48,635 nt of DNA from Candidatus Coatesiibacteriota bacterium (lineage in GTDB: Bacteria > RBG-13-66-14 > B26-G2 > WVWN01 > G020348885), in assembly GCA_020348885.1 (NCBI GenBank), contig CP070755.1, positions 2,201,434-2,250,068 on the forward strand. Direction: 5' to 3'. A program made the translations under genes and the position numbers. Of this stretch, positions 17,086 to 33,080 are shown in pieces. The notes beneath the pieces are model-generated. The model was not told the DNA's origin, ran no database searches, and saw nothing but the letters and a program-made list of their open reading frames with translations. Position 1 is the first letter of the stretch; each line of letters begins with the position of its first letter.

Positions 17086-17114
17086 TTGACATAGCTATAG
17101 CAATATGCTATAGT
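17086..17114 (+). promoter_or_regulatory. Strong sigma70 promoter with internal palindromic operator
   Basis: TTGACA (17086-17091), a 17-nt spacer and TATAGT (17109-17114) make a near-consensus promoter 46 nt before the portal gene. The spacer and -10 contain a perfect inverted repeat, CTATAGC-AATAT-GCTATAG (17095-17113). A dimeric repressor bound there would block polymerase. This is the expected layout for a silent, inducible late operon. Confidence 0.75.
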
Positions 17115-17159
17115 CCAGTTATTCAACGTTCTACCTTTTTACCTAACCCAAAAAACGTT

Positions 17160-18353
17160 ATGGGAATAATCGAAAAGGCCAAGGAGTTATTGTTCGGCGA
17201 CGTCGAGAACCGACCCCGGCCCGGCGCCGAGGTACTAGGGTACTCATCCTTCGACGGGCCGATAGCTCGCCACTTTTTCGCGGCGCCGGACTTGGCCGCT
17301 TACCGGAAAATGCGCCTGGACGGGCAGGTATCCGCAGGGCTATCGGTCCTCAAGCTGCCAGTTATGAGCCGCCGTTATCAAGTGGTCGCTGATTCGGACG
17401 AAGTGGGCGATTTCGTCAGGAAAGCTCTGGAACCGGTCTGGCGGGACCTGGTTAGGGGCGCACTCCTCGCCCTCGACTATGGTTTCGCCGCGATGGAAAA
17501 AGTCTGGGCTTTGGACGAGAAGGGTAAACTAGTTTACGCCCGTTTCAAGGACCCGGAACCGGAAACGTTGGAGCTCGACGTGGACGACCACGGCAACTTC
17601 GCCGGCGTTTCGCAGCGGCCGGACCGGCGTATAGACCCAGATAAAGCGTTCCTGTATACCCACCGTCTCGAACACGGCAACCTGTACGGTATCAGCCGCC
17701 TCCGTCCCGCGTATCCTTATTGGCGTACGAAAGAAATTATCTACTTGTTCCTTAATCGGTATCTCGAGCGGAAGGGTAACCCGCCGGTAGTGGTCAAGTA
17801 TCCGCCGCGGGTTACGCCGTCGGACACGGGGCCGGCCGCCGACAAGAACGCGAAGGCTGCGCTGGAGCTGGGCGAGAAGCTACTCGAGAACTCGGCCGTC
17901 GCAGTCCCCCACGATACCGACTCGCACGGGCACCGGACCTGGGAAGTATCTTACCTCGAGGACGATCCCAGGGTTGCGATGTTCTTGGAATATATCGAGC
18001 ACCTGAATAAGATGATACTCCGTTCCCTTTTCGTCGCGGACCGGGTTTTTACCCAGGACGGCGATACCGGTTCGTTCGCCCTCGCGAAGGTCCACGCCGA
18101 TATCTTCCTGATGAGCGAAGAGGGGCTAATCGCGGATATCGAGGCCGCCATCAACGAGCAGGTCGTGAAACCGCTTGTCGAGTTTAACTTCGGCCCCTGC
18201 GAACACTGTAGAGTCGTCGTCGAACGTTTCAACGAGGAGGACCGGGAAGTGTTGAAGGACGTTTTTCTGCGGGCGGTGGACTCCGGCAAAGCGCGGCCGG
18301 CCGTGGACGAACTCGCCGAACGCCTGGGCGTCCCCCTGGCGGAGAATTGGTAA
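17160..18353 (+). CDS. Phage portal protein (DUF935, Mu gp29-like)
   Basis: This 397-residue protein matches the DUF935/Mu gp29 portal family in pattern. It has a gp29-type alternation around RMRLDGQVSAGLSVLKLPV, a central ALLALDYGFAAMEKVW, and the conserved RYLERKGNPPVVVKYP. The portal forms the dodecameric DNA channel at one head vertex and binds the terminase and the tail connector. Mu gp29 is longer, so this is a compact version. It is the first gene after the operator-bearing promoter. In Mu-like phages terminase genes come just before the portal; here they are missing. Confidence 0.82.
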   Translation: MGIIEKAKELLFGDVENRPRPGAEVLGYSSFDGPIARHFFAAPDLAAYRKMRLDGQVSAGLSVLKLPVMSRRYQVVADSDEVGDFVRKALEPVWRDLVRGALLALDYGFAAMEKVWALDEKGKLVYARFKDPEPETLELDVDDHGNFAGVSQRPDRRIDPDKAFLYTHRLEHGNLYGISRLRPAYPYWRTKEIIYLFLNRYLERKGNPPVVVKYPPRVTPSDTGPAADKNAKAALELGEKLLENSAVAVPHDTDSHGHRTWEVSYLEDDPRVAMFLEYIEHLNKMILRSLFVADRVFTQDGDTGSFALAKVHADIFLMSEEGLIADIEAAINEQVVKPLVEFNFGPCEHCRVVVERFNEEDREVLKDVFLRAVDSGKARPAVDELAERLGVPLAENW

Positions 18354-18358
18354 CCCCC

Positions 18359-18387
18359 TTGTTTAACCGCCGTTAAAGTGATACACT
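18359..18387 (+). promoter_or_regulatory. Promoter of the moron-like gene
   Basis: TTGTTT (18359-18364), 17 nt, TACACT (18382-18387). Each box has three or four consensus bases and the spacing is ideal. It lies just after the portal stop and 37 nt before the likely ATG. Confidence 0.45.
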
Positions 18388-18423
18388 ATGTACTGGGAAC
18401 GTTACACCATAAGGGGGACCGAT

Positions 18424-18954
18424 ATGCGTGCGATTCGCGTGATGGCGATATTTTTATCCACTCTTTCGATAACTTCGCAAGCCGATGCCGAAGCAGGCGA
18501 AGTGGTTGAACTCAACCACGGTTTTCAGTTCGAGGAGCCGGGGTCGGAGTGGACGGTTAAGAAGTATGATTCCGCGTTGGTTCTCGCCGGGTTGGAGAGG
18601 GAGAACAGCGAAGCGGTAATAACGATTACGTACTTCGATTATACGATTTACGACGACATAAACGTCGATTACGGATACCTTCGGGGGCTTCTCGTGAAGA
18701 ACGAGAAGTCTACGTACAAAGCGACCAAGCCTAATTACGAACGCGTGAACCTGGATAAAGTCATCCTTTCGACCGGCGACGCCGCGCGACTGGAGTTCAC
18801 TACCGAAATAGCTAACGACAAGCGACGTTCGGTCGTTACCTGTTTGAACTCGGGTAAGCTGGTCTTTTTCGTCTCGATGGAGTCGAGAGAAGAAGAGTTC
18901 GACGAAGTGATAAGCGATTACAAGGCGTTGCTTTCGAGTATAGTGGTTAAGTAA
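18424..18954 (+). CDS. Secreted PsbP/DcrB-like protein, moron-like cargo
   Basis: I choose ATG 18424 because AAGGGGGA lies just upstream and the protein then opens with a signal peptide (MRAIRVMAIFLSTLSITSQADA); length is 176 residues. The mature part has the layout of PsbP/DcrB/DUF1795 proteins: a beta segment (NHGFQFEEPGSEWTV), a later GDAARLEF strand, and a closing helix with EEFDEVISDYKALLSSI. Its molecular role is unknown. It is not a virion protein by sequence. With its own promoter and terminator it interrupts the portal-protease junction, as a phage moron does. An upstream in-frame ATG at 18388 is less likely. Confidence 0.8.
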   Translation: MRAIRVMAIFLSTLSITSQADAEAGEVVELNHGFQFEEPGSEWTVKKYDSALVLAGLERENSEAVITITYFDYTIYDDINVDYGYLRGLLVKNEKSTYKATKPNYERVNLDKVILSTGDAARLEFTTEIANDKRRSVVTCLNSGKLVFFVSMESREEEFDEVISDYKALLSSIVVK

Positions 18955-18992
18955 AACGCGTAGTTTTAAACGAAAATTGGATTAACCGGGAG

Positions 18993-19024
18993 AACCGGGT
19001 CTGTTTAGCAGGCCCGGTTTTTTT
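18993..19024 (+). terminator. Strong terminator after the moron-like gene
   Basis: An 11-bp stem AACCGGGTCTG (18993-19003) pairs with CAGGCCCGGTT (19009-19019) with one G-U pair and a 5-nt loop, then T7. It would stop the moron transcript, and also reduce read-through from the late promoter into the protease gene. Confidence 0.85.
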
Positions 19025-19036
19025 GTTGGAGGGTTG

Positions 19037-20206
19037 ATGGAGCCGAATCGCATCGAAGTAAATTACCTATCCAGAAACGTCGAGATGGACGGAAAGCCCG
19101 TACGTTTCAGGAAGGAGATAATACGCGTCGGGCGCTTCCGGCACCCGCAAGACCCGGACGAGGTCGTGGAGATTACCGAAAGTCGCTTGCGCAGGTGGGC
19201 CGAGAACTTTCGGCGGGCAGGCGTAAAGGTGTGGGTACCGTACCGGCACAGCGCTGACCCGAAGGATAACACAGGTTGGGTCGAGGATATGTTCGTCGAC
19301 AAGAACCGGCTCTTCGCCGTGATACGCGTAATAGACGACGAAACGGTCCGGCTGCTACGCGAAGGGGTTATCGAAGACGTCTCTGTCGGGGTTGACCTCG
19401 ATTACGTGGACGCCGAGGGGAGACGCTTGGGCGAAGTAGTACGGCACGTCGCCCTCACGCTAGATCCGTATGTCCGCGAACAGCAAGGTTTCATTGAGAT
19501 GACTGACGAAAGAAACGATATGAGAGTTAACGAGAAAGGGGGTGGAGGGATGCCGGAAACTATATACGCGTACGTGGACCCCGAGACGGGCGTCGGTTTC
19601 TACCCGCACCACCGCGACGACGGAACAGTCGATTTAGAGAAAGTTAAAGCGGCTTTGGAGGAGTTGGAAGGTTCGGACTTGCCCGAAGACGTGAAAACGA
19701 TAATCCGCGAACACTTGCTCGCTCACCTGGCGGAGGCCGAAGGGGCCGCCGCGGCGACGGCCGAGGGTAGTATGGACGCCGAGGCGAGGACGAAACTCCT
19801 CGAACTGGAAGCGATGAGCGCCGAGTTGGCCGAGCGGAATAAAAACCTCAGGCGGAAGATACGGGACCTGCGCCGCAAACATTCTTTGACGAAGCGAATG
19901 TTCGCCGAGCAAGAGGTGGACGACTACGTAGCCGAGGGGAAACTCACGCCGGCGTGCCGGCCGGAAGCGTTAGCGATGCTGTTGGACGGGACCGGCAGAA
20001 CGCTTGAGCTGGAAGGCGGTCGGGTAACCGTCGCCGAGACTTTCCGGCGGCTGGTCGCGAAGATGCCGCCGGTGGTCGATTTCGGCGAGTACCTGGCGCT
20101 TGAGAAACCAAACCGGGACGAGCCGCTGGGCGAATCTGAACTGAAGATACTCGACGCGCTGGGCGTTAGCCCGGCCGACGTACGTTCGTACGCCAGCACG
20201 CGATAA
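19037..20206 (+). CDS. Prohead protease/scaffold (Mu gpI-like)
   Basis: This 389-residue protein starts at ATG 19037, after GGAGGG. The N-terminal ~165 residues resemble the Mu I-type serine prohead protease. PYRHSADPKDNTGWVEDM offers the His, IEDVSVGVDLDY the Ser, and VRHVALTLDP the conserved closing segment. The C-terminal half holds a charged coiled coil (ELEAMSAELAERNKNLRRKI, about 245-290), as expected of a scaffold that is degraded during head maturation. A possible internal start at 19550 could make the scaffold separately, as Mu gene Z does within I. Confidence 0.78.
   Translation: MEPNRIEVNYLSRNVEMDGKPVRFRKEIIRVGRFRHPQDPDEVVEITESRLRRWAENFRRAGVKVWVPYRHSADPKDNTGWVEDMFVDKNRLFAVIRVIDDETVRLLREGVIEDVSVGVDLDYVDAEGRRLGEVVRHVALTLDPYVREQQGFIEMTDERNDMRVNEKGGGGMPETIYAYVDPETGVGFYPHHRDDGTVDLEKVKAALEELEGSDLPEDVKTIIREHLLAHLAEAEGAAAATAEGSMDAEARTKLLELEAMSAELAERNKNLRRKIRDLRRKHSLTKRMFAEQEVDDYVAEGKLTPACRPEALAMLLDGTGRTLELEGGRVTVAETFRRLVAKMPPVVDFGEYLALEKPNRDEPLGESELKILDALGVSPADVRSYASTR
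19550..20206 (+). CDS. Possible internal scaffold start (Mu Z-like) within the protease gene
   Basis: In-frame ATG 19550 is preceded by the purine-rich AAAGGGGGTGGAGGG, with GGGGGT ending 6 nt upstream. It begins MPETIYAYVDPETG just after the protease domain and would make a 218-residue scaffold containing the coiled coil. The nearer GGAGG lies only 1 nt from the ATG, which is too close to be optimal, so translation here is uncertain. Confidence 0.35.
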   Translation: MPETIYAYVDPETGVGFYPHHRDDGTVDLEKVKAALEELEGSDLPEDVKTIIREHLLAHLAEAEGAAAATAEGSMDAEARTKLLELEAMSAELAERNKNLRRKIRDLRRKHSLTKRMFAEQEVDDYVAEGKLTPACRPEALAMLLDGTGRTLELEGGRVTVAETFRRLVAKMPPVVDFGEYLALEKPNRDEPLGESELKILDALGVSPADVRSYASTR

Positions 20207-20236
20207 GCGAAACGGAATTATATACGGAGGTAAAAA

Positions 20237-20650
20237 TTGACTGCTTTAACCGAAAACTACGACGCCGAGCGGAAGGACGGGATACTTATTACCTACCCCG
20301 TATCCGCGGGCGAGACCGTGTACAAAGGCGCGCTCGTGTGTTTAGACGCCGACGGTTATGTCGTACCCGGCGACGACGCGAGCGGTTACGCGTTTGTCGG
20401 CGTGTCGTATGAGAAGGCCGATAATACTGACGGCGCCGACGGCGACGCGACGGCCCGTGTGTGGAAGGTCGGAACGTATGTATTTGCGGCCGACTTTACA
20501 GCCGGGCAGGAGGATGTCGGAAGCGAAGTTTACGTCGTAGACGACAATACGGTGAGTACCTCGACCACGTACGCCGTCGCGTGCGGAACCGTTGTTGAGG
20601 TTATCTCGAGCGCTTCGGTCCGTGTACGTATAGATAACAGCGTTAAGTAG
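20237..20650 (+). CDS. Head decoration/cement protein (DUF2190-like)
   Basis: This 137-residue protein starts at TTG 20237 with GGAGG 6-7 nt upstream. It is beta-rich, with ITYPVSAGETVYKGALVCLDA and the late strand VVEVISSASVRVRIDN. These fit the DUF2190 type of small capsid-associated proteins found between the protease and major capsid genes of Mu-like and related phages. These bind the outer capsid and stabilise the shell. It has no signal peptide. Confidence 0.72.
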   Translation: MTALTENYDAERKDGILITYPVSAGETVYKGALVCLDADGYVVPGDDASGYAFVGVSYEKADNTDGADGDATARVWKVGTYVFAADFTAGQEDVGSEVYVVDDNTVSTSTTYAVACGTVVEVISSASVRVRIDNSVK

Positions 20651-20663
20651 AGGGGGTGAAGAG

Positions 20664-21563
20664 TTGACGATAATAAAAGACGATATGGGGCGGCTTCTGG
20701 ACGCCGGCGTTAAGACGCTTTTCTATAAAGCGTACGAAACCGCGCCGGCCCAGTACGACGGTATCGTTACGGTCGTCCCGTCAAGTACGAACTCCGAGGA
20801 CTATAGTTGGCTGGGCGCGCTCCCGACGATGCGTGAGTGGACCGACGAACGAATACCCCGCGGCCTGATAGAACACGAGTTCACGATAACCAATAAAGAC
20901 TGGGAAGTAACCATCGCGGTTGACCGTAACGTTATCGAGGACGACCAGTACGGACAGCTAAAGGCGCGGATTTCGGCGATGGCCGAGGAAGCGCGCCGCC
21001 ACATCGACGAGCTCGTGTTCGAGCTTCTGGCGTCCGGTTTCGCCGGCGTTTGCTACGACGGGCAGCCCTTCTTCGACACCGACCACCCCGACGGGGTCGG
21101 CGGTACCCAATCCAACAAGGGAACCGACGCACTCTCAGCAACCGCTTACGGCGCGACCCGCGCTGCAATGATGAAGTTCGCCGACGACCAGGGCAGGGTG
21201 ATGGGCGTCGTACCCGACGCGCTGGTGGTTCCACCGGAACTGGAAGAGACGGCTCGCCAGGTGCTCAACAGCGACTTCTATCCCGAAACAGGATACGAGC
21301 ATATCGGCAACCCGTGGAAAGGGTCCGCGACGCTGGTCGTAAGCCCATACCTGCCGGACGCCGACGACTGGTTCCTGCTTTGCACTTCCCGGGCCGTCCG
21401 GCCGCTCGTACTCCAGATGCGGAGAGAAGTTACGTTCAACGCGCTCGAAGGGCAGAGTGAAGGCGGGTTTATGCGTAAGCGTTACCTGTACGGCGCCGAC
21501 GCCCGGTACAACGTCGGTTACGGACCGTGGCAGTTCGCGTACGGGAGTTCGGTTTCGACGTAG
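20664..21563 (+). CDS. Major capsid protein (Mu gpT-like)
   Basis: This 299-residue protein matches the Mu gpT major head subunit in length and pattern: FYKAYETAP near the start, LGALPTMREWTDERIPRG, FTITNKDWEVTIAVDRNVIEDDQYG and the late FTHP-like FFDTDHPDG. It would form the HK97-fold shell. TTG 20664 follows AGGGGGTGAAGAG. A 12-bp hairpin directly follows the gene, which may adjust expression of the capsid against the tail genes. Confidence 0.85.
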   Translation: MTIIKDDMGRLLDAGVKTLFYKAYETAPAQYDGIVTVVPSSTNSEDYSWLGALPTMREWTDERIPRGLIEHEFTITNKDWEVTIAVDRNVIEDDQYGQLKARISAMAEEARRHIDELVFELLASGFAGVCYDGQPFFDTDHPDGVGGTQSNKGTDALSATAYGATRAAMMKFADDQGRVMGVVPDALVVPPELEETARQVLNSDFYPETGYEHIGNPWKGSATLVVSPYLPDADDWFLLCTSRAVRPLVLQMRREVTFNALEGQSEGGFMRKRYLYGADARYNVGYGPWQFAYGSSVST

Positions 21564-21588
21564 CGAACGTTTCCGCGCCGATATAACC

Positions 21589-21631: not shown

Positions 21632-21648
21632 AGACGGAGATAGCTACT

Positions 21649-22086
21649 ATGGCTTACGTAAATGTTTCGGACGTTCGAGAACGGTTGCCGCTCATTACCG
21701 ATTCGGTGCGGACCGACGCTCAAATCGAGAGGTTTATAGACGACGCCGGCGCGGTCGTCGACGGATACCTGCGGGGCGTTTACGAGCTTCCGCTAGGCGA
21801 ACCCGTCGACCCGTTGGTGGGGTACATCGCCTTGGAACTTACGTGCGGTTTGGTCCTGGAGAACGTTTACGGCGAGGAGTCGCCCAATGATGTAGCCCAA
21901 CCGCGGCTCTTAAAAAACCGCGCGCTCGCGTTCCTGGACGATATCCGATCCGGCCGGATACTACTGGACCACGACGCGTACCCTGCCGGTAACGCGCCGG
22001 CCGTCGCGAGAGAAAGCGTGCTGTCCGGCGATACCGAACGGTCCCTTTTCTCGGTCGACCCGGACGTACTGGGGCCGATCGAATGA
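21649..22086 (+). CDS. Mu gp36-like head-tail connector (DUF1320)
   Basis: This 145-residue protein resembles the DUF1320/Mu gp36 family. It is alpha-helical, opening with YVNVSDVRERLPLIT, then IERFIDDAGAVVDGYLRGVYELPL and LKNRALAFLDDIRSGRI. These proteins follow the major capsid gene in Mu-like phages and are thought to be neck or head-completion proteins, as gp6-type connectors are. The usual position just after gpT supports the call. Confidence 0.78.
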   Translation: MAYVNVSDVRERLPLITDSVRTDAQIERFIDDAGAVVDGYLRGVYELPLGEPVDPLVGYIALELTCGLVLENVYGEESPNDVAQPRLLKNRALAFLDDIRSGRILLDHDAYPAGNAPAVARESVLSGDTERSLFSVDPDVLGPIE

Positions 22087-22099
22087 GGAGCGTTTCGCG

Positions 22100-22552
22100 A
22101 TGATTTACGACGCGACCGATTACGTCAAGGAAACTAAAGAGCTGGTGAAGTCGTTAATAGAGACCGAGTTCGCGGGCGCGATCGTCCATATGTCGGACCC
22201 GGACAATGTCCCCGCATACGGCGGCGGGACGTTCTGCGTCGAAGGCGCCGCTTCCGGCGCCGATACGTCCCACGGCGCGTTCGGCCAAGTTTACGTTACA
22301 ATTCGAGTCTGGACGTACTACACCGAAGTAGATAACGAGTTGGCCGAGGCGCGGGTGAGCGAGTTGGCGCAAAAGCTGGAGGCGGTGTTGTTAGCGGCCA
22401 CGTCCGGCGGCCCCGCCGCGGGCAACGACATAGTGGGCACCGACTTCATACAGACTGCTTATTTGACAAGGGAAAAGGGCCGGGCTTTGCGCCGGAAGTA
22501 CCTACGCGCTGCTAGGACTGAATGGCGCGTCCGGTTGGCCGCGTGCCGATGA
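22100..22552 (+). CDS. Tail completion/terminator-like protein
   Basis: This 150-residue protein fits the small tail-completion proteins that sit between neck and tail-tube genes. It has an N-terminal helix (VKELVKSLIET-type), a beta strand QVYVTIRVWTYY, then a long helix (ELAEARVSELAQKLEAVL). That helix-strand-helix order is common in tail terminators of the gpU/gp37 kind. I see no stronger family mark. GAGGAG lies upstream of the ATG. Confidence 0.55.
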   Translation: MIYDATDYVKETKELVKSLIETEFAGAIVHMSDPDNVPAYGGGTFCVEGAASGADTSHGAFGQVYVTIRVWTYYTEVDNELAEARVSELAQKLEAVLLAATSGGPAAGNDIVGTDFIQTAYLTREKGRALRRKYLRAARTEWRVRLAACR

Positions 22553-23324: not shown

Positions 23325-23753
23325 GTGGACCGTCGCAAGGAAGAAGCCGTCCGCCTGGTACTGGAGGGGAAGGCCGCCGCGCAAGTCGCTAAACTGATTA
23401 AAGCCAGAGAGGAAACGGTACGCGAATGGTTCTCGGATCCGGAGTTTATAGCGCGTGCGAAGAAGGAGTTAACCAACAAATGCCTTCTGTTGATACCGGA
23501 CATCCTGGCGCGTTTGGCCGAGCTTATCCGGGAGGGTTCCGATACTGCTTCCGTCCAGGCGATAAAAGTCGTAGTAAAACTCTGGGAGAACGTGAAAGCC
23601 GACGGCGAGGACGAGAAAGTTATTGATTCGTTAATCGCGATAATCGATAAGGTGCTGGGCGAACTGGATAGGGAACAGGAAAGGCAGGCCTTTTACAAGC
23701 GGGCGCCCGGGACGCCCGGCGACGGCGCCGAGGAGACCGCCGATGAAGGGTAA
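23325..23753 (+). CDS. Small-terminase-like helix-turn-helix protein
   Basis: This 142-residue protein starts at GTG 23325. Residues 1-45 form a homeodomain-like HTH (EAVRLVLEGKAAAQVAKLI, then VREWFSDPEFIARAKKEL). The W-x-x-PEF pattern is frequent in phage small terminase subunits, and the helical remainder with GSDTASVQAIKVVVKL fits too. Small terminases recognise DNA for packaging. It is misplaced here, between tail tube and chaperone, and has no large terminase partner nearby. Another helical tail-module protein is a possible alternative. It overlaps the next gene by 11 nt. Confidence 0.5.
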   Translation: MDRRKEEAVRLVLEGKAAAQVAKLIKAREETVREWFSDPEFIARAKKELTNKCLLLIPDILARLAELIREGSDTASVQAIKVVVKLWENVKADGEDEKVIDSLIAIIDKVLGELDREQERQAFYKRAPGTPGDGAEETADEG

Positions 23754-24192
23754 GCTGACCGAAAGGCTACGGAAGCTGACGACCCGGGAGCGCGAAGCGC
23801 TGGACGAAATGGGAGACGAAGTCCGTTCGTCGCAGCCCGGGCCCGAGGACGTTATCACGCGGACTGTAAAGGTCGGTTCCACGGAACTACCGATACTCAA
23901 TCTGAACGGGTTATGGGCGCTCAGAAAACTCCTTCGCGACGATACGAACGAGGCCGAAGCGATGTTAACTATCGTCTGGGTTTTACGAAACCAACACCGG
24001 CCTGAACTAGTTGACGTCGTCACCGACGGCGCGCCGAGGGACGAGTTGGCGGCGTTGGCCTGCGAAATTGATTTAGCCGCCGCGGCTGACATCCTGGCCG
24101 CGTTCGAGGAGATGGTCGCCCCTTTCGGCAAAAGGGACGACGGTGGGAAAGCGGCCGGACGCCGCGGGGAACCGGTGGAGAGGGTGCGTTAG
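23743..24192 (+). CDS. Tail assembly chaperone (gpG-like)
   Basis: This 149-residue, mostly helical protein (LTERLRKLTTREREALDEM; LNLNGLWALRKLLRD; ELAALACEIDLAAAADILAAFEEM) lies just upstream of the tape measure, where siphoviruses encode the tail assembly chaperone. The hydrophilic, charged C terminus fits. The -1 frame is open from 24090 through the next small gene, so a -1 frameshift could make a longer G-T fusion. No canonical slippery heptamer is in the correct phase. Confidence 0.55.
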   Translation: MKGKLTERLRKLTTREREALDEMGDEVRSSQPGPEDVITRTVKVGSTELPILNLNGLWALRKLLRDDTNEAEAMLTIVWVLRNQHRPELVDVVTDGAPRDELAALACEIDLAAAADILAAFEEMVAPFGKRDDGGKAAGRRGEPVERVR

Positions 24193-24356: not shown

Positions 24357-25024
24357 ACGGCGGAAGTCCGGAAGGTTTATCGGCGGACGAGCTTCGAGAC
24401 GTCGAGTTGACTCTCGAGCGAATAAATGAGCAGCTAGCCGAGATATCGAGGCGTCAGGAAGAGGTGGCCGCGTCTGTCGGCTCCGGCATAAGGAAAGCGG
24501 CCCGCGATGTCGAGGAGTTCAACAGAAAGATGGAAAGGGACACCAGTCGGGCATTGGCCGGTATGATAGCGGGCACGAAGAGCGCCGCGAACGCGATGCG
24601 CGGGGTATGGCAGAACTTCCTCTCGTTCTTCCTGAACAGGATAATCGAACAAATAAGCGGGGCTCTCGGCGGCCTCGTCGGCGGGGGTGGCGGTGGTTTC
24701 TTCGGCGCCCTTTTCGGCGGCCTTCTCGGACTCTTTGGGCTTCAGGAGGGCGGCCTGGTTCGGGGAACCCGCGAGGGGCGGTTGTTCGTCCTCGGCGAGA
24801 ATTTCACCGACGAGCTGGTCGTCCCCCTGTCGAAGATCGCCGCCGGCCGTTCCGCGGGCGGGCCGGGGCAACTCGAAGTCACCCCGCAGGTGAGTATCTT
24901 CCCCCGGTTCGTAATCGAAAACAACGCGCCTCTGGACGCCGAGATGCGGGTTTATGAGATGGCCGAGACCGGGCGCCGCCTGGTGGCCGCGACGGACCTG
25001 GTCGGCGCGCCGGAGAACGAATGA
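24353..25024 (+). CDS. Very short tail tape measure protein
   Basis: I choose GTG 24353 because GGAGG (24342-24346) lies 6 nt upstream; upstream in-frame codons read as Arg-rich non-protein. The 223-residue product has an N-terminal coiled coil (LTLERINEQLAEISRRQEEV), then SAANAMRGVWQNFLSFFLNRI. A glycine/hydrophobic segment and the tape-measure C-terminal signature follow (GGLVRGTREGRLFVLGENF, DELVVPLSK). At roughly 0.15 nm per residue it would set a tail of only about 33 nm. RcGTA has a tape measure of about this size. The next gene overlaps by ATGA. Confidence 0.75.
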   Translation: MNGGSPEGLSADELRDVELTLERINEQLAEISRRQEEVAASVGSGIRKAARDVEEFNRKMERDTSRALAGMIAGTKSAANAMRGVWQNFLSFFLNRIIEQISGALGGLVGGGGGGFFGALFGGLLGLFGLQEGGLVRGTREGRLFVLGENFTDELVVPLSKIAAGRSAGGPGQLEVTPQVSIFPRFVIENNAPLDAEMRVYEMAETGRRLVAATDLVGAPENE

Positions 25025-25887
25025 CCGATGACGCGAAGAAACGAGTAAGGGTTTTTCTCGGTTTCGGCCCCGGCGGCGGGCGACCTACCGAGTTTACCGA
25101 CAGGGTAACCAGGGTCGGCCCGCTGGTACGTACGCGGGAGAACGCGCCCGGCGTCCCGTCGGTCGCGACGTTCTCTCTCGAGATAACGCCCGAAGATGAC
25201 GGGACGACCGCCGGCCGCGGAACCCTGTTCGAGAGCGAAACGGTAACGTGCGAGGTTTACTGGACCGGGTCACGCTCGAGACGTCCGCCGGCCGGAGACA
25301 GGTTGTTTTATGGGGTATTGAAGGGATCGCCGAAATCTGCGGAGAGCGTCGTCGAAAGGCGCGCTACGCTAAACTTCGTCGGCGCGCTGGCGGGACTGTG
25401 GGACGACGCTGAAGCCGAATTGTTCGACGGCGAACGCCGCTACGTTGATTTAGAAACCGACGTCTTACCGGTTATTTTGACCCGCGCTAAACTCCCCGTA
25501 AACGGTGTCGATATCCAAATACCACCCGTCGAGACCGACGAACCGTTCTGGTCGCCGGTCGGCCGCCCGCCGGCCGACCTGTTGGCGGTTGCCGAGGAAG
25601 AAGCCGCCGCGTACGAGGTTCGTGGCCCGGCGTGGGATACCGCGCGTTCGGTCGTTTACGTCGGATTCGGGCCGTTTATCTGCTATTACGACGGGTCCGC
25701 TTGGTCGGTAGTCGCGAACGTCGGTTATTCCGGCGGAGACCCGGCGCTTAAAACCATAGGCTGGCGCGTCGTCTACCTCGAGTACGATAGGGAGGCCGAC
25801 GGACTCCTTGGCGTCGCCGAGACCGTCGAAGGTGATGTCCGCGAACATGCAGCCCACGTGAAGGCGAGGTTCGCGGTCGGATTATAA
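25021..25887 (+). CDS. Tail tip/hub protein, probable
   Basis: This 288-residue protein follows the tape measure with a 4-nt ATGA overlap, the usual place of the distal tail or hub protein. It is beta-rich (RVFLGFGPGGG; VATFSLEITPEDDG; VTCEVYWTGS) and mentions of small Gly/Asp turns are frequent. No enzymatic motif is seen. A role in the tail tip beneath the tube is inferred from order only. Confidence 0.5.
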   Translation: MTDDAKKRVRVFLGFGPGGGRPTEFTDRVTRVGPLVRTRENAPGVPSVATFSLEITPEDDGTTAGRGTLFESETVTCEVYWTGSRSRRPPAGDRLFYGVLKGSPKSAESVVERRATLNFVGALAGLWDDAEAELFDGERRYVDLETDVLPVILTRAKLPVNGVDIQIPPVETDEPFWSPVGRPPADLLAVAEEEAAAYEVRGPAWDTARSVVYVGFGPFICYYDGSAWSVVANVGYSGGDPALKTIGWRVVYLEYDREADGLLGVAETVEGDVREHAAHVKARFAVGL

Positions 25888-25909: not shown

Positions 25910-27496
25910 TTGAAGCAAGTAAAATTTAACGACGCGGCTTTGTTCCGCTTATACGACAAGGGCATAGCGGTACGCTCAAAAACGCTCTCGTTCCACAGCC
26001 ACAAGGACGAGGACAGCGACGAGTTAGCCCGCTGGACCGTTGAGGCCGTCGGTTACCCCCACGTCTACAGCACCCAGGAGATAGGTATTCCCGACCACGA
26101 GGTACGTACCGAGGGAACAATCAAAGGGTATTACGGCCGGGGGACCCGTATATGGGCGGTGAAGGACCTGGACGATACGCCGCCGACCCACGGCTGGGAG
26201 GCGACGGTCCACGACTCGATAACCGGTTACAGGCAGTGGTTAGGTAAATTGTTGAAGATAACGGATGCCGACGAAGGTTGGACCGTCGAATGCGAACGGC
26301 CGTTCGGGTATCCGATATCGTCGGGCTCCGCCGCGTACTTCTACCGACCGGGCGTCCTGCCAACCGACAACCTGTTGGTACCGAAGTTATGCGATGTCGA
26401 AATTAGGTACGAACAAGAGGAGGGTCCCGCGTCGCCCGTTCCCGCGCCCGTGGAAATCTATCGCCGTTTTTGGCGCCGAGGAAAAACGTCGTTCTACTTC
26501 GCCGATAAAACCGGCGAAGTCGCCGAAGGCGAAACAGCTCGGCTGGACGCCGGTTTCTACGCATTCGTCTCCCAGCACGAGCTGCAAGACATTGAAATAA
26601 AGATAGACGACGAGGTTTATGTACACCATTACAACGAGCCGGCGTCGCCTTTTAACGTAATCTTAAAGAATGTCGCCCATCCCGCTTACTTCTTATCCGC
26701 CGGTCTGTGGGTCGAGCAGGAACCCCAGGACGCTAAAAGGTTCAGCGCGCCAGGAAACCCGAAAGCCGTAATCCACGGTCGGCCTTTGTACGATACAGAC
26801 GGTGAACCGGTCGAGGGCGCCGGTGGCGTATTCTTCGGCGAGGGGCCCAACGGCGCGCCGTGGGTTGGCCGCAACGTCGTCGGATTCGACCCGAACCCGA
26901 AGGTCTTCGTGAAAGGCTGCGCGTTGGGCCGCTTCGACGGAGCACGTCTGGACGGGAAGTTCAATTACAGGGGAGAGGACGATTACCTCGGCCTTCCGCC
27001 GTACGAGCTCTCGGGAGGTATGGCCGCGCCCCCCGGCGAGCTGGCCGGCCCGCGGATACTTACGACCCGGATATGGAAACGAACGCGCTTGCAGGTGGTG
27101 TGGGCGGCGCCGCCAGGCGATGATGAACTCCCAGCTGGGTACGACGGCGGTTGGGCCGCGGTCCTGATGGTCCCCGGCGACCGAACCGAACTTCTGGAGG
27201 AAGGCGACGTTATAAGGCTGGGCGCCGGTCCCGGCGACGAACCGTACCCGCGGGAATACGTTGTATCCGAATCAGGCGCCGGCGTACGGTACGTAGACGA
27301 GGACAGCCCGTACGCGCTGGACGACTCGTGGCGCGGACGGACCGAAGTGTTCACTTGGTTGATTATATTGGAGCTGGATTCGTCCGGCGATTTAACCCAC
27401 GACGAGCGGGTCAGGTTGGAAACGCTCGGGAAGTACATATCTGTCGCCCGGGGTTGGGACGTACGCCACGAGGTTTGGAAAGCTGGACAAGGCTGA
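25910..27496 (+). CDS. Tail tip/baseplate-type structural protein, unknown family
   Basis: This 528-residue protein starts at TTG 25910 after AAGGGGA (6 nt). It is beta-rich with many Tyr/Trp/Gly turns (YGRGTRIWAVKDLDD; HGWEATVHDSITGYRQWL). A Pro/Ala/Gly-rich stretch near 375 (YELSGGMAAPPGELAGP) looks like an interdomain linker. I do not recognise the family. It lies between two likely tail-tip genes, so it is probably a structural or host-interaction protein. Confidence 0.5.
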   Translation: MKQVKFNDAALFRLYDKGIAVRSKTLSFHSHKDEDSDELARWTVEAVGYPHVYSTQEIGIPDHEVRTEGTIKGYYGRGTRIWAVKDLDDTPPTHGWEATVHDSITGYRQWLGKLLKITDADEGWTVECERPFGYPISSGSAAYFYRPGVLPTDNLLVPKLCDVEIRYEQEEGPASPVPAPVEIYRRFWRRGKTSFYFADKTGEVAEGETARLDAGFYAFVSQHELQDIEIKIDDEVYVHHYNEPASPFNVILKNVAHPAYFLSAGLWVEQEPQDAKRFSAPGNPKAVIHGRPLYDTDGEPVEGAGGVFFGEGPNGAPWVGRNVVGFDPNPKVFVKGCALGRFDGARLDGKFNYRGEDDYLGLPPYELSGGMAAPPGELAGPRILTTRIWKRTRLQVVWAAPPGDDELPAGYDGGWAAVLMVPGDRTELLEEGDVIRLGAGPGDEPYPREYVVSESGAGVRYVDEDSPYALDDSWRGRTEVFTWLIILELDSSGDLTHDERVRLETLGKYISVARGWDVRHEVWKAGQG

Positions 27497-27513: not shown

Positions 27514-28284
27514 ATGAAACCATTTATATCGATAATAGGCGGTAAGACGCGCCGTGCCAGGCGGTTAGCCGAGTTATTACCAACGGCCCGGTGCTACGTT
27601 GAGGTGTTCGGCGGTTCGGCCGCTGTGCTATTTGCGAAGGAGCGTTCGTCGGTTGAGATTTACAACGACGCCGACGGCGAGCTGGTTAATTTATTCAAAA
27701 CGGTCCGGGACCGCCCGGGCGGTTTGAGCGAAGCGCTGAGGTTCTTACCCGCTTCGCGTGAATTCTACCGCGAGTTGTTGAACGGGAGTTGTAGCGACGG
27801 TGACTCAGTCCGGCGCGCCGCCGCTTACTACTTCGTACTTAGGAACTCGTTTTCGTGTAAGCCCGGTGCCGGGTTTCGCTCCAGCAGGGCTGAGCGGTCC
27901 CGGTACAGTATGTTCGCCGACTTCACGAAGTGGTCCGAGCGCCTCGACCGCGTTTACATAGAGGATTTGGATTTCGAGGACGTAATCGAGAAATACGACG
28001 GACCGGATACGATCTTCTTCGTCGACCCGCCCTACCCCGGCCGCGAGCGTTATTACAACGGCGGGTTCAAACCGGAGGACCACGAACGGCTCCGCGACGT
28101 TCTCGCCGGAACCCGCGGGAAGTGGTTGCTGACGTACGCGGATACGCGGGAGATACGGGAGTTGTACGGAGGTTACCATATCCGGGCGGAGACGGTGCCC
28201 TACTCGGCGTCCCTGGACCGGGGCAAGCGGCGCCCGCCGGCCAATGAGTTGGTAATCTCGGACTACGATACGGAGGGCGAATAG
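27514..28284 (+). CDS. dam: DNA adenine methyltransferase (Dam/D12 family)
   Basis: This 256-residue protein is a D12-class N6-adenine methyltransferase. The SAM site is near the N terminus (SIIGGKTRRARRLAELLP, in place of the usual KWxGGK), followed by YVEVFGGSAAVLF and EIYNDADGELVNLF. The catalytic motif is DPPY at residues 171-174, and KWLLTYADTREIREL and NELVISDY close it. It has no restriction partner in the window. It sits in the middle of the tail genes as an enzyme that is not a virion component, probably cargo that protects or marks DNA. Confidence 0.88.
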   Translation: MKPFISIIGGKTRRARRLAELLPTARCYVEVFGGSAAVLFAKERSSVEIYNDADGELVNLFKTVRDRPGGLSEALRFLPASREFYRELLNGSCSDGDSVRRAAAYYFVLRNSFSCKPGAGFRSSRAERSRYSMFADFTKWSERLDRVYIEDLDFEDVIEKYDGPDTIFFVDPPYPGRERYYNGGFKPEDHERLRDVLAGTRGKWLLTYADTREIRELYGGYHIRAETVPYSASLDRGKRRPPANELVISDYDTEGE

Positions 28285-28285
28285 A

Positions 28286-29404
28286 ATGGATTGGGAAACC
28301 TCGTACATATTCACGTCGGAAGCCGACCGGCCGGAGGAGGGCCGGGAAATCGATTGGGAAGAAGCCGAAGTCCATGGCGAAAAGGTTGTTCCAATGACCG
28401 ACGCGAAAAGGCCGTCGGCGCCCAGGGCCGCGTTACGGCATTACCCGATAGTCGAAGGTTCGGTCTTGGTCGCCGCGGCGCCGCCGGACCGTTCGGCATT
28501 TGACGTCGTCGACGTAACAGACGTTCCGTCGTGGGGGGTCCCGGCGAAGGACGAAGCGTACGTCGACCGGAAAGGCGGCGACGACGCCGACACGGTTTAC
28601 GTGTACGTGAACCCGGGCCGCGAAGGTGACGAGATACACGTTCAATACGAGTACTACCCTTCCGGCGAACCGCCAAAGTTGTACGCTTGCGGCGGCCCCG
28701 TCTATTGGACCGGTCCCGAAGCCGGGAGTTGGTTCGTGTACGAAGGCGGCGAAGTGAAACGAGGTTACAGCGCGTCGCCGCTTCGAGAAGCCGCGACCTC
28801 CGGTGATGGCGTATTCGCAGCTGGGCCGGACCTTTACATTTACTCGCGGCGCCGCACGACCGTTTTACGCGATTTCCCGGCCGAGGCGAAATCTAAAGAG
28901 GTCATCGGGTATCTGGCCCAGGCGTGGGGCGTCGACGTGGACTACACCGACTCGCGGATATTCCGCTTCGCGGCGGAGGGCGGGAACAACCACACGATAG
29001 ACGCCGACGAAGTAATCGGCTTCGGTTCGAAGACACGGCGCCCGGCCGCGCCGATCGTGGAAGTAAGCTATGCTGCCGGGCGGGTTCGGAGCGGCGACGG
29101 AAAGGAAACGGTCGTTTATCGGAACCCATATATTGACAGCTTGGCCCATGCCAGGTGGGTCGCCAATAGGCTCCGCCGGCGTTACGAACACGAGCGGTTT
29201 ATATTCGAGTTGCGGCTCGCCGGCGTAAAGGACATCGAACCCGGCGACATGGTAGGTTTCGACGCCGGCGGAGTCGAACGTTCCGGCGTCGTCAGGAAAG
29301 CGCGGCTAGACCTGGAAGCGCGGATAACCATTCTCGAGTTGGCTTTGAACGAGGGAGGAGGGGAAAAGAAGTGTCACGGTTCCAATACGTTTCCGGCGGA
29401 GTAG
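28286..29404 (+). CDS. Tail tip protein (hub-like)
   Basis: This 372-residue protein starts at ATG 28286 after GGAGGGC. The C-terminal ~200 residues (KEVIGYLAQAWGVDVDYTD; YIDSLAHARWVANRLRRRYEH; LAGVKDIEPGDMVGFDAGG) look like the hub domains of phage tail proteins, where GD-V/M-V loops are typical. The N-terminal part is Pro/Asp-rich with an Ala-Pro linker near residue 55. The end overlaps the next gene, whose GTG start (29371) lies inside it. The call rests on context and these patterns. Confidence 0.55.
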   Translation: MDWETSYIFTSEADRPEEGREIDWEEAEVHGEKVVPMTDAKRPSAPRAALRHYPIVEGSVLVAAAPPDRSAFDVVDVTDVPSWGVPAKDEAYVDRKGGDDADTVYVYVNPGREGDEIHVQYEYYPSGEPPKLYACGGPVYWTGPEAGSWFVYEGGEVKRGYSASPLREAATSGDGVFAAGPDLYIYSRRRTTVLRDFPAEAKSKEVIGYLAQAWGVDVDYTDSRIFRFAAEGGNNHTIDADEVIGFGSKTRRPAAPIVEVSYAAGRVRSGDGKETVVYRNPYIDSLAHARWVANRLRRRYEHERFIFELRLAGVKDIEPGDMVGFDAGGVERSGVVRKARLDLEARITILELALNEGGGEKKCHGSNTFPAE

Positions 29405-29970
29405 GCCCGCCGAAAGTGGAGGTCCTTTCGGCAGGCGGCGCCGTTCTACGTACAGTAGTTCTGGCGGAATCGGCCAAGCTGAACGAGAGTTACGAGTTAG
29501 TGACGGTACGTAATAGCGCGGTTACCGGCGGCATCGTGGACGTACCCCGAGGGTATCGGTACCGCGCGGATATCGATTTCGCTACTCTGGTGTTGGACGA
29601 ATGGCGTGAGGTCGTACGGCTCTTTAGCGATTACAACGCCGGGAAGGCATTACGTTTTTACCCGCACGACGATGAGCCGGGCGTCTTTTATAAAGTCGTT
29701 CCGGGGTCCGGGGTAGCGCTTCCATATCTACAGGGAAGGTATCTAGGCTACGAGGGCAAGGTTTCGTTCGTCGGCGTGGAGGTGCTCGATTACGTACCTT
29801 GCCCGGCGTCCTTCAGCTTCTTCTGTTCCGCCGACGAGACCGGTTACGACCCCGGCGAGGTATCGCACTTCACCGACGCCGAGGAGGAGGGTTACGCGGC
29901 CGGCGAAATAAGTTGGTTCTCGGGTACCGCCGTAATAGGGCAACGTGAGGAGATAAGCGTGGGGAGTTAA
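29371..29970 (+). CDS. Distal-tail (Dit)-like protein, possible
   Basis: This 199-residue protein begins at GTG 29371 after GGGAGGAGGGGAAAAG, overlapping the preceding gene by 34 nt. The N-terminal 130 residues are beta-rich, with a WREVVRLF helix and YEGKVSFVGVEVLDYVPC strand in the style of Dit galectin-like or tail-tip proteins. The C-terminal ~50 residues repeat a motif DETGYDPGEVSHF and EEGYAAGEISWF, which looks like a small tandem repeat. Function is inferred from context. Confidence 0.5.
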   Translation: MSRFQYVSGGVGPPKVEVLSAGGAVLRTVVLAESAKLNESYELVTVRNSAVTGGIVDVPRGYRYRADIDFATLVLDEWREVVRLFSDYNAGKALRFYPHDDEPGVFYKVVPGSGVALPYLQGRYLGYEGKVSFVGVEVLDYVPCPASFSFFCSADETGYDPGEVSHFTDAEEEGYAAGEISWFSGTAVIGQREEISVGS

Positions 29971-30031
29971 CGGTGTTTTAACGACGCGCTCAGATCGTAT
30001 ACAGGTAAGAAGGAAAGGCGGGTTATTTAGT

Positions 30032-31999
30032 ATGGCCGGTATTTTTAAGTGGGTGTTCGAGAATATAGCGCCGGGCGAGACGGACCCGGAAAAACGCGTG
30101 GACGCGGACCGGGTAATGGACAACTTCTACGCGTTGGCGCGTTCGAACGCGAATAAGCGAGCCCTGGGCGCCGACGCCGAAGACGGCAACTCCAACGGCG
30201 TATCGACGCAGGACCAGTGCAACATCACGGTACTTACGGTCGACGGCGTAGGCGGTTTATTGGAATTAAACGACGAAGTAATCGTTTCGGACGGGACCAG
30301 CGTATGGTCATTAACCAACGTTTTGACGGACGACGAGTTGTCGTTCAACGATTCCCATCTCGCGAAGGGTTCGGGCCCGTCCGACTACTCGGATCCGGGC
30401 TTCATTGATGGCCTGGATATAAAGATAACCGGATTCAAGGACGTGTTGGGCAAAGACCAACTTATACTTGCCGGTTCCCACGCTCAGAAGATTACGGGCG
30501 AGGACATTGAGACATCCGCGTCCGACGCGAAGAAACTCGGGGTTGCCGTAACAGACGTTCAATCCCAAGTAGATGTTTCGCTTGAACCGAACGGTTCGTT
30601 AAAGAGCGCCTTGGTGGCCGTCGAAAACATAGCAAGCGACGCGATGCTGGAGGAAAACGACGGCAACCTGGTCTTCGGGATGATGGAGTACGACTGGGAT
30701 AACGATGGCTACGCCAACGGCTGGAGGGCCTACAACGACCCGACGGGCGCCGAACTCTCGTCCGAACAATCGGTGTTCGGCGACCGTTCCCAGAAGGTGA
30801 CCGCCAGCCAGCCGGACGACGGTATCGTCAACGACCCGGACGAGTGCCGGTTCGACGTCGCCAGTTATAAGGGTCGCGGTCTCTCGGCCGCCGCGTATGT
30901 TTATTGTTCGACCGATGATACGGTCGTAATCGAAGTTTACGACGGTATTGGTGCGTCCGCGAGCGAAGCTGGAGGGACCGCCGGCGCGTGGGAACGTATC
31001 TACGTAACTCGCGAAATCGACGGTTCGGCGACAGACTTGCAGGTACGGATATACGCAACGGAAGCGACGGTTTTCTACGTTGACGAAGTCCACGTTTGCC
31101 TGGGCAGGTTACCGGTCGGATTCCATCCTCACTCGGACGAACAGATAAGGCAAAACGTATCGGAGGCGAACCTCACGAACTACTGCCCGAATTCCGGTTT
31201 CGCCGAGTGGAGTTCCGGCGACCAATCTTTGCCGGACTTATGGGGCGGGAACGGCGCGGTCCAAAACAACCCCAACGGTCTGTTCGGGGAAGGCTGCGCG
31301 GCCGTGTCTTTCGATATTGGCGAGAAGTTTTTTATGGATGTTCCGAAATACCGGGATTTCCGCGAGAGAACTGTTTATTTTAACGCTTATGTCCAACTGG
31401 ACAACGGCGTTAACGCGCTTCGTATGCAAGTGGACGACGGCGTCGGGACCACGTACAGGGATGTGGTGCCCGGCTTCGGCTGGCAGCGCCGCGGTGTCAG
31501 GCACACGGTGGATCCGGATGCCACCATGCTGAGGATATCGTTCGAGAACCAGGACGGCGGTAATATAACGGTGCTTATCGACGGCGTTATGTTGACGGTT
31601 GACCGGTATCCTATCGGGTATAAACCGGCTACGGTATATAAACCATTCGTCGTCGAGTTCGGGTTGGCCGGTACGGTAGTCGATGGGTTTATGGAAGGGC
31701 CGGGCGGCGTAACCACCGGCGTTCCCATTCCGTTCCCGGGAATTATCCAGTCCCTTTACGTTCGGGAGGGCGTGCCTGGAATAGGAGACGATAGTTTCAA
31801 GGTTTATGTAGGCGGCGCTCTATACGCCGACTACGACGTTACCCTCGGGAACGGCGAAACCGGCGTTTCGGCGGGTGTCGCCGCGGCGGACGCCGTCGAA
31901 CTAACGCCCGGCGCTTACGTTCAGATATATTGCGACGCGGCCGCGATGGGCGCGGGTTCGGACGCGGTCGCCGTGTTGAAGGGCATTACGTGGGTATAG
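30032..31999 (+). CDS. Tail fibre / receptor-binding protein with two related beta modules
   Basis: This 655-residue protein is the largest of the cluster and lies near its end, the usual place for a fibre. The N-terminal ~200 residues likely attach it to the tail. Two related beta-sandwich modules follow (about 210-370 and 390-535), each with a strand pair and an ending of the type RLPVGFHPHSDEQ or RYPIGYKPATVYK. Both resemble carbohydrate-binding or jelly-roll folds. The C-terminal ~115 residues are a further Gly/Ala-rich beta domain (YVGGALYADYDVTLGNGE). It probably binds sugars on the target cell surface. Confidence 0.6.
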   Translation: MAGIFKWVFENIAPGETDPEKRVDADRVMDNFYALARSNANKRALGADAEDGNSNGVSTQDQCNITVLTVDGVGGLLELNDEVIVSDGTSVWSLTNVLTDDELSFNDSHLAKGSGPSDYSDPGFIDGLDIKITGFKDVLGKDQLILAGSHAQKITGEDIETSASDAKKLGVAVTDVQSQVDVSLEPNGSLKSALVAVENIASDAMLEENDGNLVFGMMEYDWDNDGYANGWRAYNDPTGAELSSEQSVFGDRSQKVTASQPDDGIVNDPDECRFDVASYKGRGLSAAAYVYCSTDDTVVIEVYDGIGASASEAGGTAGAWERIYVTREIDGSATDLQVRIYATEATVFYVDEVHVCLGRLPVGFHPHSDEQIRQNVSEANLTNYCPNSGFAEWSSGDQSLPDLWGGNGAVQNNPNGLFGEGCAAVSFDIGEKFFMDVPKYRDFRERTVYFNAYVQLDNGVNALRMQVDDGVGTTYRDVVPGFGWQRRGVRHTVDPDATMLRISFENQDGGNITVLIDGVMLTVDRYPIGYKPATVYKPFVVEFGLAGTVVDGFMEGPGGVTTGVPIPFPGIIQSLYVREGVPGIGDDSFKVYVGGALYADYDVTLGNGETGVSAGVAAADAVELTPGAYVQIYCDAAAMGAGSDAVAVLKGITWV

Positions 32000-32008
32000 G
32001 AGCCGAAA

Positions 32009-32269
32009 GTGGGGGGTAACAACGGGTTCAAAGAGTTCGTACGCGCAGAGATACGGAACGTGAAAGACGCCGCCGAACGCAACTACGAGGAACATAAAGC
32101 GCTTTTCGACAAGCTGGCCGAGTTGGCGGAACGCGTAATCGCGATCGAGGCTCTGTTGGAGTCGGGTGCCGCCGACCGGAAAAGCCGCCGTGCGATGTGG
32201 GCAGTGGTGCTCGCGGCACTTATAACTGCGTTGGGCGGTGCGTTCGCGGCGGTGGCGGGGAGGTTGTGA
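32009..32269 (+). CDS. XhlA/holin-associated-like membrane protein
   Basis: This 86-residue protein starts at GTG 32009 with AGGAG upstream. It has a charged coiled coil (residues ~15-55, AEIRNVKDAAERNYEEHKAL then LAELAERVIAIEALLESG). One C-terminal membrane helix (AMWAVVLAALITALGGAFAAV, residues ~63-83) follows. That layout matches XhlA-type proteins, which act with holins in phage-like lysis modules. No holin or endolysin gene follows, so its lysis role is uncertain here. Confidence 0.6.
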   Translation: MGGNNGFKEFVRAEIRNVKDAAERNYEEHKALFDKLAELAERVIAIEALLESGAADRKSRRAMWAVVLAALITALGGAFAAVAGRL

Positions 32270-32310
32270 TGTTGTTTACAGGATAGCCGGTAAAAAAAGC
32301 GCCGCGATTT

Positions 32311-32338
32311 TTGTCAGAAATTGACAGTGAAGTATGTT
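32311..32338 (+). promoter_or_regulatory. Promoter with palindromic operator before the WYL regulator
   Basis: TGTCA-GAAAT-TGACA (32312-32326) is a perfect inverted repeat about 60 nt before the regulator gene. A weak promoter can be read over it (TTGTCA 32311-32316, 16 nt, TATGTT 32333-32338), so a dimer bound there would repress. It may be autoregulatory. Confidence 0.45.
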
Positions 32339-32387
32339 AGCATGAGACGAGGGAATGGCAGAATGCAAATGAAACCCGGCGAAATAG

Positions 32388-33080
32388 ATGAAAAAATCAG
32401 AGCGGCTTTTTTACGTCTATAACCTGCTGAAGACCGGCGCTTCCTTCACTATCGCCGACCTAGTGGAGAAGTGTAACGTATCGGAGCGGACTATTTACCG
32501 TGACATAGCCGACCTCTCGGCGTATATCCCCCTCTATTATGACGACGGATACCGTTTATTGAACCTGACGCCGCCGGCTGTTCCGCTACCGCTTCCCTTT
32601 TCGACTAGTGACCTTTTGCTTATAAACCGCTGTTTGAAGGCGACGCCGCTGAACGCTTTGCCGGCGGCCCGCCGAAAGGTAGATTCTGTACTCCGCAAAA
32701 CCCGAGATGTGATGCGTGCCAACCCGGAAGACGGTGTAGACGTCGCTAACTACGCCGAGGTAATCGGTGGAAAACCGCCCGACTCTAAGAACGAGCAACG
32801 TACCCTGCGGCTCTTGGAGAAGGCTATACGTGACCGGCGGGTCGCGCTTTGTTCCTATAAACGCGACAACGGTGGTCCGGTCGAGGAAGAGACCGGGCCC
32901 CTCGGTCTGATACACTATAACGGCGACTGGTTCTATGCTGCCCGGGTAATTGCGCGGAACGAGGACGCGCTGATAAACGTAAATACGATAGAACGGGCCG
33001 AGATAATCGATAAGGAGTTCGTAACCGTTTCCAGAGATTTACGGGCTTTCTTCAACGATATATTAAAGGGCAACGCGTAA
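32388..33080 (+). CDS. HTH-WYL transcriptional regulator
   Basis: This 230-residue protein has an N-terminal winged HTH of the HTH_11/DeoR type (RLFYVYNLLKTGASFTIADL; NVSERTIYRDIADLSAY). A C-terminal WYL domain (about 135-215) has CSYKRDNGGPVEEE and GLIHYNGDWFYAARV, with DWFYAAR at the WYL signature. WYL regulators sense ligands such as nucleic acids and often govern phage, CRISPR or DNA-damage genes. It lies directly after the phage-like cluster on the same strand and is the only regulator in the window. It is therefore the best candidate to bind one of the two palindromes here. Confidence 0.85.
   Translation: MKKSERLFYVYNLLKTGASFTIADLVEKCNVSERTIYRDIADLSAYIPLYYDDGYRLLNLTPPAVPLPLPFSTSDLLLINRCLKATPLNALPAARRKVDSVLRKTRDVMRANPEDGVDVANYAEVIGGKPPDSKNEQRTLRLLEKAIRDRRVALCSYKRDNGGPVEEETGPLGLIHYNGDWFYAARVIARNEDALINVNTIERAEIIDKEFVTVSRDLRAFFNDILKGNA

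Follow-up and report, generated by a model that had tools for sequence, protein, structure and literature searches.

Does an uninterrupted run of phage head and tail genes, lying beside the housekeeping genes of a bacterial chromosome, belong to a virus or to its host? The question is raised by a 48,635-nucleotide stretch of a Candidatus Coatesiibacteriota genome (contig CP070755.1, positions 2,201,434 to 2,250,068; hereafter, the window), in which Pfam and PHROG family scans revealed an unbroken, same-strand (+) series of such genes, the structural part starting at position 17160 and ending at about 32269 (Table 1). An initial annotation had described this layout as an intact head and tail run with a promoter and operator on its left and a WYL regulator on its right, and the family scans, together with a pattern search, verified it. 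We consider it probable that the window holds the principal structural gene cluster of a particle system of phage derivation that is ancient, domesticated, distributed over several loci and similar to a gene transfer agent (GTA), and the GTA-like particle is best read as independently domesticated.

The packaging motor provides the first line of evidence. Neither a large terminase subunit (TerL) nor an endolysin is encoded in or beside the run, and the whole window genome (G000) gave no match to terminases of PF03237, phrog_38 or phrog_2. The terminase had been predicted to lie elsewhere in the genome, and it does. A weak phrog_2 match in a relative, G005, corresponds to a solitary 511-aa gene (L155:3427-4962) that is a phrog_675 terminase large subunit (E = 4e-119), and with this protein as the query, a solitary gpA-type TerL was recovered from the window genome (PF05876 GpA_ATPase, 3e-18), encoded among host genes 76 kb from the portal gene and preceded by its own promoter (12/12). 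Its neighbours, named by eye, are membrane-protein and radical-SAM-like genes. The orthologs of G005 and of a third genome, G006, match phrog_675 at ~1e-118, and all three proteins are motif-complete, sharing the ATPase motif KAAQVG, the DELD Walker B, four zinc-finger cysteines and the nuclease acidic residues. The gene lies 39 kb from the cluster in G005 and on a different contig from the capsid genes in G006. This TerL was found in exactly the three genomes that carry the window type of capsid (f1-type), and the G005 query gave no clear match in the other 11 genomes of the phylum. An operator common to the window locus and the unlinked TerL was looked for and not found. The absence of a large terminase from the cluster would also suit a phage satellite, or a capsid-providing helper fragment dependent on the packaging of another phage; however, such elements usually have an integrase and lack a complete set of head and tail genes of their own, the reverse of what is seen here. 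The genome moreover has a single terminase of this family, a solitary gene embedded among host genes and kept in three families, and this explanation is very improbable.

The second line of evidence comes from the distribution of the genes among 14 genomes of the phylum, all public assemblies, 9 of which are at least 90% complete. The capsid protein is present in 13 of the 14 genomes, at one locus each, and the portal likewise in 13, with a weak match in G004; both occur in all 9 of the more complete genomes. A frameshift, either genuine or an assembly artefact, interrupts the f2-type capsid gene of G003 (L115:2504-3835). Outside the phylum, a capsid match was obtained in 4 of 27 genomes. The tail tube family is found in 12 of the 14 phylum genomes versus 2 of 372 other genomes, with no match among 50,697 phage records, and viral contigs yielded only distant relatives of the tube and the terminase. 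In the tube tree, the family of the window (f1) and its order-mate f2 are joined at 99/99, and the species order within f2 and within f5 matches that of the RpsB tree; this agreement and the presence in 13 of 14 genomes represent the vertical inheritance expected of a GTA. In the tree of the major capsid protein (MCP), f1, f3 and f4 form a group, and the order within f5 is host-like. A single clade of f1-type and f5-type capsids was given up as a proven result, since the MCP tree neither shows it nor speaks against it. Ratios of nonsynonymous to synonymous substitution rates (dN/dS) were obtained from f5 and f2, the window genome having no close relative in the set, and selection across relatives, which the initial annotation had put forward as a check, is mostly purifying, dN/dS lying for the most part at 0.1-0.4: the ratio is ~0.2-0.4 for capsid, protease, tube and portal in f5, with the hub reaching 0.65, and 0.06-0.4 in f2. 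The gene set occurs almost throughout the phylum, mostly in single copy and by vertical inheritance, and together with the unlinked TerL it bears out the preference for a domesticated GTA-like particle over a live prophage.

The dispersal of the genes in relatives forms the third line. In G005, the homolog of the likely tail terminator is absent from the cluster and lies ~44 kb from the portal gene amid host genes. In G006, the protease-decoration-capsid operon ends abutting the genes for CvpA, FtsB and enolase, the tail operon begins on another contig after the genes for AspRS and HU, a third contig has the portal gene by itself, with host genes after it, and TerL is on a fourth. Because host genes border both the head and the tail operon of G006, the set does not form one block there, the draft state of the assembly notwithstanding. 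The multi-locus arrangement expected of a GTA is thus seen as a distance of 76 kb in the window genome and 39 kb in G005, and as four contigs in G006; a set scattered over several sites could not, in the manner of a virus, package itself and be passed on. Several host neighbours recur: the HU gene precedes the G006 tail operon as well as reduced operons in f2 (below), the enolase gene borders the G006 head operon and is near the reduced locus of G004, and two host genes beside TerL in the window genome have orthologs 6 kb away from the tail operon of G006. These common neighbours suggest that the pieces were scattered from a single ancestral site.

The same observations bear on whether the locus is instead an ordinary temperate prophage, Mu-like or other, or a decaying remnant whose early genes were lost or went unrecognised. 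The phage origin of all structural genes would agree with this, as would a variable slot and a split hub in the tail module, the loss of capsid and portal from the f1-type locus in f2, and the occurrence of Mu-like capsids as prophages in many phyla. We nevertheless strongly disfavour a prophage and regard it as improbable. Inspection by eye of ~17 kb to the left and ~15 kb to the right of the run, and around the G005 cluster, showed no integrase, transposase or replication gene, a result that combines the reading of translations with family scans of selected genes; a DDE transposase or Mu-type early region is absent from the window. The terminase is unlinked in three families, and the near-universal single loci, the host-like tube tree and purifying selection are at odds with a prophage, as is the division of the set over several sites in G006, since an element split in this way could not transmit itself. 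A search for att-like repeat pairs flanking the run found none, and a prophage delimited by such repeats was accordingly rejected. The initial annotation had named an integrase or terminase near the ends, att repeats and confinement to one strain as findings that would speak against it, and none of these was encountered.

The head genes of the run are of the Mu type, as defined by PF06074, PF10124 and PF07030. The near-consensus promoter in front of the portal gene is overlapped by a perfect 8-bp inverted repeat, CTATAGCA-ATA-TGCTATAG (17095-17113), which occurs as a single copy within the window, where 0.05 copies would be expected at up to 3 mismatches. An 11/12 promoter with adjoining short palindromes is also found at the start of the G005 portal operon (L101:18864-18892). 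The regulator gene on the right lies beyond the structural run and is a candidate member of the system and a hypothetical repressor of the run; no WYL homolog was seen in the retrieved clusters of relatives. The flanks are ordinary chromosome: an M6 peptidase and a protein of endonuclease/phosphatase fold on the left and, on the right, a bifunctional-nuclease-domain protein, rpsB, tsf and an amino-acid kinase (pyrH by position), followed by housekeeping genes that include those for ribosome recycling factor and undecaprenyl diphosphate synthase.

Table 1. Features of the structural locus, its flanking regulator and the unlinked terminase. Coordinates are window positions, except for the terminase.
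Feature	Coordinates	Strand	Basis
Sigma-70 promoter, near-consensus	17086..17114	+	TTGACA-17-TATAGT with TG, 11/12; overlapped by palindrome (candidate operator)
Portal protein, Mu-type	17160..18353	+	PF06074 E 1e-45, phrog_113 9e-62; in 13/14 phylum genomes
Predicted secreted protein, between portal and protease	18388..18954	+	homologs L208, L209, L210, L212, E ~1e-27 to 1e-33
Head maturation protease/scaffold-like	19034..20206	+	phrog_976 2e-15; orthologs in f3, f4, f5
Capsid decoration-type protein	20237..20650	+	phrog_1731 6e-32; kept in all families
Major capsid protein, Mu gpT type	20664..21563	+	PF10124 1e-85, phrog_371 3e-88; 13/14 phylum genomes
Gp36-type head-tail connector	21649..22086	+	PF07030 8e-11, phrog_195 8e-13
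Likely tail terminator/head-tail joining protein	22100..22552	+	by position; blastp to G005 L189:2258-2731, 20% identity, E 8e-11
Tail tube protein, siphovirus type, 239 aa	22599..23318	+	AlphaFold model pLDDT 68, Foldseek
TerS-like protein with helix-turn-helix, weak	23325..23753	+	phrog_2538 2e-6, phrog_7344 5e-6
Likely tail assembly chaperone	23743..24192	+	position before tape measure; orthologs in f3, f4, f5 at same place
Tape measure protein, very short, 252 aa	24266..25024	+	weak tape-measure PHROG matches
Tail hub/tip, N-terminal third	25021..25887	+	alignment to first part of G005 1259-aa protein
Tail hub/tip, middle third	25910..27496	+	alignment to middle of G005 1259-aa protein
D12-class DNA N6-adenine methyltransferase (Dam), accessory slot	27514..28284	+	PF02086 4e-23, phrog_56 2e-68; orthologs in reduced f2 operons
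Tail hub/tip, C-terminal third	28286..29404	+	alignment to last part of G005 1259-aa protein
Tail tip/baseplate protein	29371..29970	+	orthologs in f3, f5; structure model uninformative, pLDDT 37
Putative receptor-binding/fibre protein	30032..31999	+	by position; orthologs in f3 (8.6e-65), f5
Holin-like small membrane protein, weak	32009..32269	+	phrog_937 3e-4
HTH-WYL transcription regulator	32388..33080	+	PF08279, PF13280; candidate member, beyond structural run
Solitary gpA-type TerL, 526 aa	C1:2140949-2142529 (L185:8950-10530)	-	G005 TerL query, E 1e-103

The tail is of the non-contractile kind. The model of the tube protein resembles the tail tubes of SPbeta SPR, YSD1, Chi and JBD30 in Foldseek comparisons, and no sheath family was matched in scans of the window, while capsid and portal are present, which sets the locus apart from contractile injection systems and tailocins. 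The joining of a Mu-type head to a non-contractile tail, which had been put forward as new, is not: transposable siphophages already have this combination, and the tube fold matches those of JBD30 and SPbeta-type phages. The tape-measure orthologs of relatives, in equivalent position, are 204-225 aa long, so the tail should be very short. Position and conservation are the basis for the tail terminator, chaperone and receptor-binding assignments. The initial annotation had described the run as lacking lysis enzymes, which fits the system in part: no endolysin was found in the window genome, and a weak holin-like candidate closes the run, but G005 has a holin-like gene beside its cluster and, by eye, an apparent M15-type endolysin.

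The hub is a single 1259-aa protein in G005 (L101:8091-11870) versus three open reading frames around the methyltransferase gene in the window. The variable slot after the hub is filled by Dam in the window, a TGT/DpdA-like gene in G005 (L101:7130-8119), and an ImmA-like regulator with a PIN-like gene in G007 (L107:9936-11592). Could the particle be a domesticated, headed device that delivers a protein or toxin, or kills competitors, with no transfer of DNA? The conserved putative receptor-binding protein and the variable slot could carry effectors, and the GTA function is itself a deduction. Yet a motif-complete terminase occurring exactly where the f1-type capsid occurs counts against such a device, which would have no need of the terminase and portal that are retained together, and no toxin domain was recognised. 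The slot is occupied in f1 by a DNA-modifying enzyme, Dam, and in f3 by a TGT-like enzyme. We hold a DNA-free device to be unlikely, to the same degree as a prophage. The DNA-modifying enzymes of the slot would fit a role in protecting the delivered DNA, a suggestion that is weakened by the occupants of the slot in G007.

Other families of the phylum package differently. In the f5 genomes, a phrog_38 TerL gene directly precedes the portal gene, and a small sigma-region-4-like gene, a candidate regulator, lies just upstream of the terminase genes (L104:4753-5127, L161:3185-3628). In the f2 genomes, a separate capsid is encoded in a second cluster, where a phrog_2 TerL adjoins a portal. Many NHL/beta-propeller-like secreted genes are interspersed in this capsid cluster (L114, L153, L156, L157), which also contains repeated pairs of gp36-like and M15-like peptidase genes. 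In both f2 and f5, open reading frames of ~80-95 aa with no obvious helix-turn-helix lie directly upstream of TerL. All four f2 genomes additionally carry a reduced f1-type operon right after the HU gene (L208:8113-12158, L209:8131-11392, L210:8760-10996, L212:5333-10183). It comprises the decoration protein, tail terminator, tube and the type of secreted protein that in the window is encoded between portal and protease, and contains neither portal nor capsid; in the retrieved stretches, Dam methyltransferase lies downstream in three of the four genomes. The genes of this operon are under purifying selection despite encoding a tube without a head.

Several observations weigh against a domesticated GTA-like system. 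It is known from its genes alone, no particle, packaged DNA or transfer having been seen, and the assemblies compared vary in completeness. The deep links between families in the MCP tree are weakly supported, and the capsids of the phylum do not form a single well-supported clade. The type of TerL varies by family (phrog_675, phrog_2, phrog_38), which implies that packaging modules were swapped or that elements were acquired more than once; probably, TerL modules were exchanged between families, and the tail and most head genes descended with their hosts. The capsid was lost from the f1-type locus in f2, the three-way division of the hub could be fission, decay or an assembly error, and the variable cargo slot, with its methyltransferase, TGT-like or ImmA/PIN genes, resembles phage morons. 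An endolysin like that of G005 was searched for in the window genome and not found. Finally, known GTA small terminases lack a helix-turn-helix (PMC6854486), and the small terminase (TerS) candidate of the window has one and is not adjacent to TerL.

If the genes act as their families suggest, the promoter with its palindromic operator would be released in some cells, and the portal, protease/scaffold, decoration and gpT-type capsid proteins would form a procapsid. The gpA-type terminase, expressed from its own promoter, would dock on the portal and fill the head with whatever chromosomal DNA is available, the short non-contractile tail would be added to the head, and the cells would lyse, releasing particles that could carry DNA to relatives. 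Production of the particles, their DNA content, release and DNA transfer are all predictions of this scheme. In a more far-reaching form, the system would be a phylum-wide GTA of independent Mu-head origin and of such age that its genome, in the form of terminase, portal, tail terminator, head operon and tail operon, now lies scattered as solitary units among host genes, which selection would still keep together, with the slot enzymes marking packaged DNA against restriction in the recipient; we offer this extension tentatively and consider it rather unlikely in its entirety.

Genes once belonging to a phage, encoding a DNA-filled head and a short tail, would thus have become a lasting component of the chromosome, passed on vertically, across a small phylum, and the gene for the packaging motor lies tens of kilobases from those for the shell, as expected of a domesticated GTA and not of a virus. 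The result is a candidate GTA in a phylum-level lineage. To our knowledge, a Mu gpT-type head had no earlier link to a GTA. Few GTA lineages are known, most of them through chance discoveries. Reviews note that sequence by itself does not suffice to find GTAs, which have several origins and occupy several loci (PMC11841831). The combination seen here, that is, near-universality in a host clade, a host-like tree and a terminase that is unlinked yet co-occurring, provides a usable signature. If the proposal is true, gene exchange by domesticated particles is the rule throughout an entire phylum, and the case makes it testable how far a GTA genome can scatter while still working.

A literature search yielded no report of this system, and its likeness to known ones is partial. 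Mu-like prophages found in Clostridia, Proteobacteria and Spirochaetes (L021-L100) agree with the window in the order of portal, decoration protein and gpT-type capsid but lack its tail module. The Mu-like transposable siphophages of the JBD30 group combine Mu-type head genes with a siphovirus tail tube; they are live transposable phages with a transposase, a longer tape measure and a linked terminase, all of which are absent or unlinked here. A genome from a different phylum (G117) contains, between UvrD-like helicase and ClpC-like genes (L246), a compact cluster of terminase, capsid, tube, short tape measure and hub genes with no integrase seen, which is possibly another domesticated particle. 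RcGTA, like the present locus, has a very short tape measure. RcGTA and its relatives (Rhodogtaviriformidae) also share a ~15-kb head-tail cluster, a non-contractile tail, vertical inheritance and the use of several loci (PMC9662315, PMC11841831), but their capsid is of the HK97 type and their cluster opens with linked TerS and TerL; no family of the RcGTA type was recognised here, where the capsid is of the gpT type and TerL is unlinked. As defined by Kogay et al. (PMC9662315), GTA-type entities derive from caudoviricetes, are vertically inherited and are unable to package a whole genome of their own. Among them, the Brachyspira agent BhGTA (VSH-1; Brachygtaviriformidae), whose only identifiable terL is single-copy and lies outside a 16.3-kb structural cluster, resembles the present system in cluster size, the external terL, conservation in the host group, co-diversification with hosts and little likeness to known phages (PMC9662315), a resemblance at the level of organisation. 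The particles and gene transfer of BhGTA have been demonstrated and an endolysin is encoded in its cluster, whereas the system described here, deduced from its genes, is distinguished by a Mu gpT-type capsid, conservation over at least five families, and the separation, in one family, of the head and tail operons and the portal as well.

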